Shown here piece by piece: positions 3,100 through 57,558 of a DNA stretch of 64,000 nucleotides. The notes under the pieces were generated by a model, which was not told where the DNA came from, searched no databases, and saw nothing but the letters and a program-made list of their open reading frames with translations. This DNA is from Patescibacteria group bacterium (GTDB taxonomy: Bacteria; Patescibacteriota; Microgenomatia; UBA1406; GWC2-37-13), in the NCBI GenBank assembly GCA_026415975.1, contig JAOAFZ010000002.1, positions 113,390 to 177,389 on the forward strand, read 5' to 3'. The position numbers and the translations under genes are program-made. Every line of letters begins with the position of its first letter. Position 1 is the first letter of the stretch.

Positions 3100-4050
3100 T
3101 TACCCCTCGCGGTTGCCGGAATGGAACTTCTTATGTACATCGCGGAGCTGCTTACTGGTGACGTGCGTATAAATCTGGGTAGTGGAGATATTCTTATGCC
3201 CCAGCATCTCTTGTACCGACCGGATATCGGCTCCGTGAGACAGGAGATCCGTAGCGTACGAGTGCCGGAGGACATGCGGTCCGATCCGGAACGGGATACC
3301 GGCCTTAAGGCGATACTTTTCGATCATCCGCTCCACGGAGCGTGCCGAGAGACGGAACTTTTCGTCGGTGATGCCTTCCTCTTTTTCCCTGGGGCCGGAA
3401 TAACGCAGAAACAGCGGCCGATACGGGTCTTTTCGCTTTTCCAGATACTTTTGCAACCAGTTGCGGGCATTCTTCGAGATGAAAACCACGCGGGCTTTTC
3501 CGCCCTTTCCGATTACCCCAAACTCGCCGGTCTTCAGATTGATCTGGTCTTTATTCAGATTTACCAGCTCTGAGACCCGTAAACCAGTCGAAAAGAGCAC
3601 CTCCATAATCGTCCTGTCCCGCAGCCCGCGGACCCCCACGGCGGGAACAGCATCGAAGAGACGCTTGAGATCTTCCGGAGTGAGGAACTTGATGTTCCGA
3701 TCCCGTCGCTTACCCAGTTCGATGGTCTCGGGAGAGAGGACGTTCAGCTTGTGTTTTTTTATGAGGAACCGGAAAAGCGACCGCAGAGCTACTAGGAAGT
3801 AATTCTGTGTCTGTCGTTTCAGATCCCCCTTATGCGGGTTTTTATAGTGATGTGAGATATAGAGGCGGAACTGGCGTATATCCTCATCGGTAATTTCCAG
3901 CACGGAGTAGTCGTCCCGGCCTTTCTGCTTCAATAGCCAGTCGCGGAAGAAGCGAATGTAATAGCTGTACATCCGCACCGTGCGGAGGGTAAGGTTTTTG
4001 TCGAGCTCGCAATATTCCAAAAACCGCACACAAGCCTCCTTGATACCCAT
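3100..4050 (-). CDS. Tyrosine recombinase (XerC/XerD-like integrase)
   Basis: At 316 aa this has the usual XerC/D length, with an N-terminal SAM-like core-binding domain (1-110) and a C-terminal catalytic domain. All catalytic residues are visible: R158 (TGLR), K182/K185 (GKGGKAR), H259 and R262 (HVLRH), H285 (LGHKN) and nucleophile Y294 (QIYTHV). It should therefore be an active DNA-breaking and rejoining enzyme. A longer open frame reaches 4119, but the ATG at 4050 matches the family start, and TAATAT (minus strand, 4058-4063) lies 7 nt upstream. Codons 1-68 are repeated almost exactly at 5536-5738. Lying beside a secreted passenger gene suggests a site-specific integration module rather than the housekeeping dif recombinase, but the housekeeping role cannot be excluded. 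Confidence 0.93.
   Translation of the reverse strand: MGIKEACVRFLEYCELDKNLTLRTVRMYSYYIRFFRDWLLKQKGRDDYSVLEITDEDIRQFRLYISHHYKNPHKGDLKRQTQNYFLVALRSLFRFLIKKHKLNVLSPETIELGKRRDRNIKFLTPEDLKRLFDAVPAVGVRGLRDRTIMEVLFSTGLRVSELVNLNKDQINLKTGEFGVIGKGGKARVVFISKNARNWLQKYLEKRKDPYRPLFLRYSGPREKEEGITDEKFRLSARSVERMIEKYRLKAGIPFRIGPHVLRHSYATDLLSHGADIRSVQEMLGHKNISTTQIYTHVTSKQLRDVHKKFHSGNREG
3848..4050 (-). repeat. 203-bp direct repeat, copy 1 (5' end of intact recombinase gene)
   Basis: This segment, codons 1-68 of the recombinase, recurs in the same orientation at 5536-5738 with only two mismatches, both synonymous. The match stops exactly at the A of the start codon on one side and within codon 68 on the other; the sequences beyond are unrelated. 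The repeats bracket about 1.5 kb that holds the Tat-exported passenger gene. Confidence 0.95.
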
Positions 4051-4129
4051 GCATCTGATATTAAACGACGTGAGGGTAGGGATGCAAGGGGAATACAGGG
4101 GTGCCGACCATCTTGGCATGTACCCTGAA

Positions 4130-54056: not shown

Positions 54057-54090
54057 GACTACGATGGGGGAGGGTGTGCTACAATGCGAT

Positions 54091-55110
54091 ATGATCCGGG
54101 AAATAACCGACCGCAGTGAATGGGTTTCGTTTCAGAATGCAACTGGCTCACCATCTTTTTTGCAATCATGGGAATGGGGTGATCTGAACGCCCGAAACAG
54201 CAACTATGGTGTTCTTCGTCTGGGTTGTTATAACGCCTCGGGTGACCTTTCAGCTACTGCACAGGTTCTCAAGATTTCCGCGAAGAGAGGATCGTTTCTC
54301 TTTGTTCCCCATGGACCGACATTTGGCGATTTAGAAAATTGGAACAGCCTTCTTAGTGAATTTCGAGATTACCTGACTGATATCGCCCGGAAAGAAGGCT
54401 ACGCATTCATACGGATTTCTCCGGTACAGGAGTATCAGAAGGCAACGATCGACTGCTACCGGGATCTAGGATTCCGGAAAGCGCCGATTTATATGCACGC
54501 CGAGCGGATTTGGGTGTTGCCCCTCGATAAAACCGAGGATGAATTACTTGCAAACATGCGAAAAACGACCCGGTATCTGATTAGGAGAGCGCCAAGGGAC
54601 GGTGTGAAAATAGAGCGTCGTAACGATCCTGAATCTATTGAAGTCTTCTGGGAACTTTACTCTCACACTGCTGAACGTGAGAGCTTTACTCCGTTCTCGA
54701 AGACCTTCGTTGACAATGAGTTCAAGACCTTTCACGAATCCGGTAATGCAGACTACTTCTTCGGCAAAGTCGGTGAAGATTACCTCGCCGGTGCGCTTAT
54801 AGTTTATACTGAATCCACTGCTTTTTATCACCAGGGAGCTTCAAGACACACCAAATATCCGGTACCCTACGCCTTACAATGGGAGGCGATAAAGTCTGCA
54901 AAGGCTCGAGGATGCAAGTACTACAACTTCTGGGGGATCCTTCAGGAAGGTAGAACTCCGAAAGCATGGGCCGGTCTGACACTCTTTAAGAAGGGTTTTG
55001 GAGGAAAACAGATTGACTATGTACCGACTATGGATTACGTGGTAGAGCCGTTTGCGTATGCAGTTTCGTGGCTTTTGGAATCACTCCTGCAATGGAAACG
55101 GGGGGTATAG
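54091..55110 (+). CDS. FemAB/FemX-family peptidyltransferase
   Basis: 339 aa with two GNAT-like halves as in FemX: FQNATGSPSFLQSWEWGDL near the start, LANMRKTTRYLIRRAPRDGVKIE, ESFTPFSKTFVDNEFKTF, and YALQWEAIKSAKARGCKYYNFWGI with GLTLFKKGFGGKQIDY. These enzymes add amino acids from aminoacyl-tRNA to the peptidoglycan stem to build the interpeptide bridge. TACAAT (54080-54085) ends 5 nt before the ATG at 54091. The Fem coiled-coil arm is absent. Last gene before the 1.6 kb non-coding island. Confidence 0.93.
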   Translation: MIREITDRSEWVSFQNATGSPSFLQSWEWGDLNARNSNYGVLRLGCYNASGDLSATAQVLKISAKRGSFLFVPHGPTFGDLENWNSLLSEFRDYLTDIARKEGYAFIRISPVQEYQKATIDCYRDLGFRKAPIYMHAERIWVLPLDKTEDELLANMRKTTRYLIRRAPRDGVKIERRNDPESIEVFWELYSHTAERESFTPFSKTFVDNEFKTFHESGNADYFFGKVGEDYLAGALIVYTESTAFYHQGASRHTKYPVPYALQWEAIKSAKARGCKYYNFWGILQEGRTPKAWAGLTLFKKGFGGKQIDYVPTMDYVVEPFAYAVSWLLESLLQWKRGV

Positions 55111-55307
55111 CCTCAATATACGGATTGTTCTAAAGGTCCCCTTTTGCGTTAGCAGCGACGGGGGATAAGCGCCAGCACGGGCTGAGTAGTGTTTAGTTTG
55201 TCAGACAGCCATTTTAACACGTGAATCTGTTAGTGTTTCTTCATGTTTGCCAACATTAGCCTCAAGTTCAACTGAGTTGTCTCCTGCATTATTACATTAA
55301 ACGACGT

Positions 55308-55335
55308 TCACTCCCCCCGCGGGGTTTGCCAGTGA
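55308..55335. repeat. GC-rich nested hairpin
   Basis: TCACT (55308-55312) pairs with AGTGA (55331-55335) around the perfect palindrome CCCCGCGGGG (55315-55324). It directly follows the ATTAAACGACGT motif. Confidence 0.5.
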
Positions 55336-56033
55336 GAGAACCGGAAAATATATTATTTCCAAAAATCACATATCAAATACACATGGCTTCCGGAAGGCCC
55401 GGGCAGGTTTCGGGTGTGTATGTCTTTTATAGTCACTTTTAAACTGTCTGATTTTAAGCTTGTTATCCTGTTTACGCACTCTGTGTTACGAGTATGAGCG
55501 AATGCACACCTTCACCTATTGTGCATACTATCGACTTGCGACTCGCGACGCGCTCGGTGTCACGGGTATGTTTAAACGAGAGAGTCGGAAATGTGAAAGG
55601 CTCAAAGACTTCGTAGGCTGTTACTACCCGTTGACCCATGTTTAGGATGACTAAAGTACACATTAATAAATTTAGAAACCCCTTAAATCGCATTTTATTG
55701 GATGTAATAGGTTTTTGTGCTTTCTAACGCTCTTATGAAACGTTTTTTTGCTATTTTGCTTATTGCCGGCAGCTTTTTTTATTTTTACTGTTTATAAAGT
55801 GGCAGATCGAAAGTGGCACTAGCGCATTACCAGGTCGACTTCTCCAGTTTTTTTACCGGCGGGGGAGAGGGAGAGCTTTCTGAGGCTCTGTAGTAATTAT
55901 AACCCAGTTACATGTAAGAAGAGCAACAAAAGGGAAGAAGAGCTATAGAACAGGATAAAATAACGAAAAACGGTAAAATTGTCAGAAAAAAATAATGGGA
56001 AAAATGCCACTTCCCTGCTGATTTTCTGCCTTT

Positions 56034-56061
56034 ACGTCGTAAAAGATATAATTTACGACGT
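56034..56061. promoter_or_regulatory. Operator-like 10-bp inverted repeat containing a TATAAT
   Basis: ACGTCGTAAA (56034-56043) and TTTACGACGT (56052-56061) are exact inverses with an 8-nt spacer, and TATAAT (56047-56052) sits between and within the arms. A dimeric regulator bound here would mask the -10 box. An ATG 10 nt downstream (56063) opens only 13 codons. Confidence 0.5.
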
Positions 56062-56111
56062 TATGGTAGTTCTATTCTCCGGGTGTATTCTACGGTTTTT
56101 TTAATAATTTC

Positions 56112-56303
56112 ATGGGACATGCCATCTTGGGAATAAGGAGGCACTGTTTAGATTTTTTTAGAGTTCGTATTTTTCTTTTTTTTACGATAAAGATCGGCAT
56201 TATTTTCCACCACATTGCACCTCCTTCTATGATTCCTATCCCGACTTCGCAGCCATTCGCCCGGCAACCATTGTCCGAATTGCTAGTCTTGTACTGGAAC
56301 TGA
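56112..56303 (+). CDS. Doubtful 63-aa ORF in the non-coding island
   Basis: TTTAAT (56100-56105) ends 6 nt before ATG, the geometry of true genes here, and the ORF has a hydrophobic stretch (FFRVRIFLFFTIKIGIIFHH). Its composition follows local T-runs, and no other evidence supports translation, so I list it only as a candidate. Confidence 0.2.
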   Translation: MGHAILGIRRHCLDFFRVRIFLFFTIKIGIIFHHIAPPSMIPIPTSQPFARQPLSELLVLYWN

Positions 56304-56368
56304 TAAAAATCTGATTTTTTGTGATTATTATCGTAATTTAGCCTCAAAAATCACTAAAACTGTAAAAG

Positions 56369-56398
56369 TTATCCACATTTTGATATAGTTTGATATAA
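56369..56398. other. Consensus DnaA box followed by TTTGATATA tandem repeats
   Basis: TTATCCACA (56369-56377) is an exact bacterial DnaA box. Starting one base later, TTTGATATAG and TTTGATATAA (56379-56398) repeat in tandem, an AT-rich segment that could unwind easily. Only one perfect box is present, so an origin is not established. Confidence 0.4.
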
Positions 56399-56417
56399 AT
56401 AACAGGCAAGGAAGGTG

Positions 56418-56442
56418 TACTCCTCTCTTCTCCGGAGGAGTA
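56418..56442. repeat. 8-bp hairpin TACTCCTC/GAGGAGTA
   Basis: The arms at 56418-56425 and 56435-56442 are perfectly complementary with a 9-nt loop. On the plus strand it is followed after about 14 nt by TTTTT, a weak terminator at best. Confidence 0.4.
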
Positions 56443-56531
56443 AAGGTATTAGCAGGTTTTTAGCCTCAAATTGAGCGTGTTTTTTTATTGCAAGGCAACC
56501 CCAAAACAGGGAGTGTTTATTTATAAAATAC

Positions 56532-56658
56532 ACGGACGTACGTTTTATGTACATTTGAAGTTTAATGTCCTATAGTAATAAAGCCTGCTCAATTATTTAC
56601 TAAAGGTCACTAATTACTATAGGTTATTTTTACTATAGGACTATTTTTACACGTCCGT
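56532..56658. repeat. Nested inverted repeats with iterated CCTATAGTA motif
   Basis: The outer arms ACGGACGT (56532-56539) and ACGTCCGT (56651-56658) enclose the inner arms GTCCTATAGTAA (56567-56578) and TTACTATAGGAC (56630-56641), a perfect 12-bp pair. A third copy, TTACTATAGG, lies at 56614-56623. The iterated element looks like a protein-binding array. Confidence 0.55.
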
Positions 56659-56730
56659 TTCTGATTGCCTCTCCCCTCTCCTCCACACCGGGATCTGGTT
56701 TTTTTATCAGTCACTATGTATGAAAGATAA

Positions 56731-57558
56731 CTACCAGGGTATTGTCAAAAGGATAATTACGAAAACAAATACCATCACAAAAACATATTCGCGTATGGTT
56801 TGCTTAAAGAGCTTGTTATCAAGGGCGTGGTAGAGTAGCCCACCCAAGCAATAATAGCTTGCTGTGACAAGCAAACTAAACATTGTTGTGCGTAAAGGTA
56901 GAAACATGTACGGAATACTGATCTGAACCACCAAAATTGCCAGAATAAACGCCCTGAACAACACTGTTTTCTCTAGGTGCGGCTGCGGCCGGACACTCCA
57001 GAGTAACTGAAGCGCCAGCGGATACAATATAAAAAATATGCTAAGGGCCATGAGGTAAAACGGTAGTCGAAACGACATAAGGACTTCGGTGCCGAGAAAA
57101 ACTACAAAAGTCTGGTATAGGTAATTTACCGAAAATGCAGCCCGATAGAGTTGAATGTTCTTCTCTACTCCGACGTTAAAGATGTTTGAAGTCAGTAGTA
57201 TCGCGTAAATCGATGAGCCGTAGATTACAATGAGTGGTAAACGCGTAAGCCAGCGTACCGGAAATAAAAAGTAAAAAAAGTATGCAAAAAGCGTAAAAAA
57301 AATCGGCATGATAAAGAGGACGAGGAGTTCAGTCTTGTTTATCCCCTCGAGAATTGCAAACCAGGTAAAGAAATACACTGCGATTAGCAATGCCGGAAGA
57401 ACATACCCGACCTGAGCAAAGTCAATAAAGGTTGCCAGGATAAGTAAAATTGTGAGTGATACCGAGCTGATCACAAATCTGAAACGACGAGGCATCCGAA
57501 GCGCCAGATTGTACATAAATGTTGGTCGGATGGCGAGTTTCATAAAAACGAGTTTCAT
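56731..57558 (-). CDS. Multi-pass membrane protein of unknown function
   Basis: 275 aa, about eight hydrophobic helices spread over the whole length, with short charged loops (for example FPVRWLTRLP and SVRPQPHLEKTV). The start overlaps the yebC stop by 4 bp (ATGA), so it is translationally coupled to yebC and has no own promoter. Very Phe/Leu/Ile-rich. I recognise no family; it might be a transporter or an enzyme acting in the membrane. Confidence 0.7.
   Translation of the reverse strand: MKLVFMKLAIRPTFMYNLALRMPRRFRFVISSVSLTILLILATFIDFAQVGYVLPALLIAVYFFTWFAILEGINKTELLVLFIMPIFFTLFAYFFYFLFPVRWLTRLPLIVIYGSSIYAILLTSNIFNVGVEKNIQLYRAAFSVNYLYQTFVVFLGTEVLMSFRLPFYLMALSIFFILYPLALQLLWSVRPQPHLEKTVLFRAFILAILVVQISIPYMFLPLRTTMFSLLVTASYYCLGGLLYHALDNKLFKQTIREYVFVMVFVFVIILLTIPW

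Follow-up and report, generated by a model that had tools for sequence, protein, structure and literature searches.

Within the window (the whole 64,000-nucleotide stretch analyzed here), positions 55111 to 56730 form a gap of 1,620 bp without any open reading frame (ORF) of 100 amino acids. The gap lies between two convergent genes, a femX-like gene of the FemAB family on the forward strand (54064-55110) and, on the reverse strand, a conserved gene coding for a 275-amino-acid multi-helix membrane protein (56731-57558), which has yebC as its upstream neighbor. The first-pass annotation had described this region as a 1.6-kb gene-free island, and it is indeed the longest of the 153 ORF-free gaps (median, 56) of the 284,887-bp contig. 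It had also described an AT-rich second half, a palindrome, duplicated repeats, and a DnaA box, all of which are present. The GC content goes from 0.44 to 0.47 in the first third to 0.34 to 0.39 in the remainder, and we confirmed the palindrome at 56034-56061, the duplicated TTTAGCCTCAAA, the inverted CCTATAGTA repeats, and the TTATCCACA box. Most of the other short repeats in the gap are two-copy, low-complexity matches like those given by chance.

Neither the small ORFs of the gap nor the six frames of its left half contain a Pfam domain, so no decayed gene was recognized there, and searches for a second copy of the gap sequence in its own genome and for similarity to plasmids found none. 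The left part of the gap (ca. 55111-55780) exceeds the matching flank in relatives (ca. 250 bp), and nothing in the relatives corresponds to these ca. 670 bp, in which no content was recognized. The 275-amino-acid membrane protein was present in 33 of 37 related genomes, the related contigs carrying the names of "Candidatus Roizmanbacteria" and other Microgenomates, and nearly all relatives also lack a long ORF in the ca. 0.9 to 1.2 kb downstream of its gene. The protein matches no Pfam or NCBIfam family and has a confident AlphaFold model (pLDDT, 89), yet this model retrieved no PDB match at an E value of ≤0.001 and thus gives no clue to its role.

A single-copy dyad and its one-sided repeats

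Comparison of the stretches downstream of the 275-amino-acid gene exposed a dyad shared by relatives, ACGTCGTAAAT-TGTATC-TTTTACGACGT. In the window, it is found on the reverse strand at 56034-56061 as ACGTCGTAAAT-TATATC-TTTTACGACGT, that is, 28 bp with two 11-bp arms that differ at one position and a 6-bp center. Allowing up to three mismatches, the dyad occurs exactly once per genome and at the same locus in 69 of the 83 genomes of the order, with no matches in the reversed control; the other 14 genomes, some of them incomplete, have no match within this limit. The core pattern matched 79 contigs in GTDB genomes, all of them ORF-free at the site (no ORF of ≥100 amino acids), and of 281 genomes sampled from the wider class, 76 had a match to a looser core, with one site each. 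This conservation of the locus across the whole order contradicts the earlier idea of a mobile-element remnant. The length, the arrangement of arms and center, the single copy per chromosome, and the intergenic position are those of a dif site, even though the core differs from the dif arms of Escherichia coli and Bacillus subtilis. The 275-amino-acid membrane protein adjoins the candidate dif in nearly all the genomes of the order that were examined.

Two further observations concern the core and its flank. Two contigs of Thermotogaceae metagenome-assembled genomes (L164 and L201) have the same 24-bp dif core, GTCGTAAAATGTATCTTTTACGAC, in ORF-free DNA, which could be either a shared ancestral dif or the result of misbinned contigs. 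In relatives, a conserved GnnAGAGnAGTG lies to the right of the dyad, on its other side, at +15 to +25, at a fixed distance and pointing away from it.

The region from the stop codon of the membrane-protein gene to the dyad, which in 65 relatives has a median length of 689 bp, contains four motifs that, compared with dinucleotide shuffles, are enriched roughly 65- to 170-fold in those relatives, with few or no copies on the other flank of the dyad. TTTAGCCTCAAA, with two elements on the forward strand of the window (56337-56348 and 56459-56470), has 88 copies versus 0.8 expected. The TATCCTATAGTA motif of the CCTATAGTA repeats, inverted in the window (56566-56639), has 92 copies in 58 of the 65 relatives versus 0.9 expected. 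The DnaA-box-like site TGTGGATAACT (56367-56377, reverse strand), which includes the TTATCCACA box at 56369-56377, has 40 copies versus 0.6 expected and a strand ratio of 39:1. Last, the AACGGACGTG element (56650-56659, reverse strand), the family consensus of which is CACGGACGTG, corresponds to 52 copies in 42 of the 65 relatives versus 0.3 expected. Conservation of the named motifs far above the shuffled expectation agrees with the earlier suggestion that such a density of structure implies a function. In many relatives, we also found a fixed 44-bp unit, composed of TTTAGCCTCRAA, 8 nucleotides of any sequence, and the 24-bp dyad TTTAGANYRNTATNAYRNTCTAAA, mostly with a spacing of 77 to 78 or 94 to 95 bp. 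The window retains the TTTAGCCTCAAA elements without the 24-bp dyads, and both the 24-bp dyad and its head also adjoin dif in a genome of another family, G180.

A long, conserved, ORF-free region with several palindromes could also be a structured RNA gene, the dyads being its hairpins, and a large structured RNA had been proposed for the gap. Nothing credible was retrieved by Rfam searches of the window at gathering and permissive E values, or of 20 relatives; the permissive search gave plant snoRNA and similar matches below the gathering score, so the covariance-model check put forward in the first-pass annotation found no family. In 77 aligned 24-bp dyads, the half-sites vary nearly independently, with pairing near the shuffled expectation and no clear compensatory excess, which argues for the site of a dimeric protein and against an RNA hairpin. 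The number, order, and orientation of the units also differ between genomes. With no known family and no covariation (pairs were tested in the repeated 24-bp dyads only), we rejected RNA hairpins and regard an RNA gene as very improbable; the conservation in relatives anticipated for the gap holds for its position and not for a covarying secondary structure in the 24-bp dyads.

The accessory repeats look like protein-binding sites, as their half-sites do not covary, and two ideas for their role are control of recombination, as at cer, or anchoring of the terminus. A centromere-like partition or terminus-anchoring site (parS- or matS-like) beside dif would be consistent with the phased units, spaced ca. 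77 or ca. 95 bp apart, and with the recurrence of these elements next to dif in a second family. Such a site, which we consider unlikely, would not compete with dif, being a role that the accessory repeats might play.

Strand polarity of AGGGGAG and GC skew

We scanned all the words of the contig for a change of strand at the dyad and obtained AGGGGAG, which has 47 copies oriented as expected and a single one in the opposite sense. Forward copies stop at contig position 167,119 and reverse copies begin at 170,060, leaving a flip interval of 2.9 kb; the lone exception is a forward copy at 206,411. The z score of AGGGGAG was 6.64, versus a maximum of 5.01 for any 7-mer in 60 block shuffles of the contig, and the polarity persists whichever strand the genes are on. 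Extending the words to 8-mers did not strengthen the polar signal over that of 7-mers, and GGGGGAG and GGGAGAG are also polar on this contig. The word was then fixed as a prediction and tested in other genomes, giving ratios of 26:3 in G019, 18:1 in G010, and 21:2 in G180 (a different family of the class), with the dyad inside the flip interval in each of the three; the overall count in G007 was 65:20.

On the contig, AGGGGAG is densest near the dyad, at 4.5 per 10 kb, and thins out to 0.5 per 10 kb farther away; the density of KOPS likewise rises toward dif (PMC5357621). Inside the gap, one copy on the accessory side (56671-56677, reverse strand) points at the candidate dif from the right, and in the equivalent flank of the 65 relatives the word was found 30 times forward and never in reverse. 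A purine tract that appears related to KOPS, GGGGGAGAGGGAGAG (55860-55876, forward strand), is aimed at it from the left. This leading-strand polarity, which flips at the dyad and gains density toward it, makes AGGGGAG a candidate KOPS-like word that would be read by FtsK. Leading-strand bias is also typical of Chi-type sites, so the word could be a Chi-like recombination hotspot, in which case the dyad would still be at the terminus and FtsK would not be guided by AGGGGAG. However, the sharp climb in density toward the dyad, the copy in the gap pointing at dif, and a GGG-rich composition like that of known KOPS all argue against such a hotspot, to which we assign a small probability.

As to base composition, the first-pass annotation had asked for an inflection of the cumulative GC skew at the gap, and there is one: G-C on the contig climbs to a maximum at 165 to 180 kb and then declines, with the dyad at 169.4 kb. 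This bears on the possibility that the gap is the replication origin, with DnaA binding the TTATCCACA box and the iterons and AT-rich DNA opening the duplex. The AT-rich second half of the gap, its repeats, and the conservation of the DnaA-box-like site in 39 of 65 loci would fit an oriC, but there is usually one DnaA box per locus and the skew at the gap is at a maximum. Besides, in the single-contig genome G007, dnaA, the skew minimum, and a cluster of DnaA-box-like sites are found together at 1.035 to 1.05 Mb, 360 kb from the dyad, which is on the terminus side. With the skew maximum at the gap, dnaA elsewhere, and the DnaA-box cluster of a skew minimum absent from the gap, we rejected an oriC, which is hardly credible at this locus. 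The earlier proposal of an origin or partition locus was thus near the mark in the class of the element and opposite in sign, as the evidence points to a locus of termination and dimer resolution, not to an origin.

In relatives, GC skew alone is unreliable as a locator of the terminus. The skew plateau of G007 begins ca. 140 kb before the dyad, the agreement there being approximate, and the skew maximum of G044 (ca. 650 kb) is far from its dyad at 904 kb. Along the contigs G019:C2 (L217-L235) and G010:C4 (L236-L248), the sign of the skew stays constant through the dyad, without a flip, while AGGGGAG polarity does flip, which indicates that the flip of the word is not a by-product of skew. This constant sign resembles the monotonic skew of other Microgenomates (PMC7143001), and Kono et al. 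reported a correlation, though not a strict coincidence, between dif and the skew shift (PMC3025954).

Xer recombinases and FtsK

FtsK and Xer-type recombinases are encoded in all 14 genomes tested, and the FtsK of this genome has the alpha, motor, and gamma domains, all above Pfam cutoffs. The Xer tyrosine recombinase of the window (3100-4119, reverse strand) has the complete catalytic set and lies 52 kb from the dyad, this distance being 14 to 55 kb in the relatives in which both coordinates were read and ca. 4.5 kb in G180. Its match to the XerA model (216.6) is just under the curated cutoff of 220. The catalytic R, HxLRH, H, and Y are kept in 13 of 13 copies of this terminus-linked Xer, unlike in a dnaA-linked paralogue that reads TGIKIGEL, NDLRNT, and STERFLN in place of the catalytic residues and has lost the arginine and the histidine in six of six cases and the tyrosine in five of six. 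This degenerate paralogue (L250:6396-7295, reverse strand) is located beside dnaA and dnaN and is kept in the relatives aligned. Only one catalytically complete Xer was found in the genomes aligned, some of which carry a further, unrelated integrase. The symmetric arms of the dyad, with a single difference, together with the degeneration of the second Xer suggest that one active recombinase probably serves both arms.

An apparent LAGLIDADG-type intein lies within the catalytic box of the Xer of G044 (CP066689.1; L251:1518-3719, reverse strand), with the junctions HVLRH / intein C...HN / SYATDLL.

The proposed terminus locus and known systems

Taken together, these data lead us to identify the gap, with high confidence, as the terminus locus of the chromosome of an uncultured, Roizmanbacteria-type patescibacterium, with its dif site and KOPS-like words that would orient FtsK. 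The 28-bp dyad would be dif, at which a Xer tyrosine recombinase would resolve chromosome dimers, a single recombinase acting on both near-symmetric arms. AGGGGAG sites converging on the gap from both replichores would orient FtsK, which would pump the DNA until dif reaches the septum, and at the site itself an accessory nucleoprotein complex probably forms on the repeats that occupy the ca. 690 bp from dif to the membrane-protein gene. More tentatively, the Microgenomates may possess one active Xer and a symmetric dif under a large one-sided accessory array (44-bp units, CCTATAGTA repeats, and the DnaA-box-like site), which would serve either as the chromosomal equivalent of the topological filter of cer/psi or as a dedicated terminus-anchoring complex, a possibility that we do not yet favor.

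Our search of the open-access literature, with subscription papers and preprints outside its coverage, found no report of such a site under dif, Xer, chromosome dimer resolution, or KOPS in Patescibacteria, CPR, Roizmanbacteria, or Microgenomates, so the terminus, dif, FtsK signposts, and accessory array of Patescibacteria appear to be undescribed in it. For some Microgenomates with a GC skew that never turns, unidirectional replication or an adjacent origin and terminus have been proposed (PMC7143001). As dif and AGGGGAG polarity locate the terminus independently of skew, the question of unidirectional replication becomes testable. Known terminus positions would also help in checking growth-rate estimates from metagenomes, and at least two families of the class share the unexplained array of conserved repeats that adjoins dif.

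Compared to the dif-XerCD-FtsK systems of E. coli and B. subtilis, the locus has the same 28-bp 11-6-11 single-copy terminus site, an FtsK gamma domain, and polar GGG-rich words converging on the site, and it differs in its almost perfectly symmetric arms, in a second Xer without catalytic residues, and in the long one-sided conserved repeat region adjoining the core. One catalytically complete Xer and a symmetric site are also found in XerS/difSL, XerH/difH, and archaeal XerA/dif, but the center is 6 bp here and 11 bp in difSL (PMC5357621), and the recombinase gene, unlike xerS, is not adjacent to the site but 4 to 55 kb from it. With KOPS, SRS, and AIMS, the AGGGGAG word shares the leading-strand bias, the flip at dif, and the rising density toward it, while being a heptamer and a candidate FtsK site. 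Last, the one-sided accessory DNA beside the Xer core is like that of plasmid cer and psi, with the difference that here it is chromosomal, much longer, and made of other motifs.
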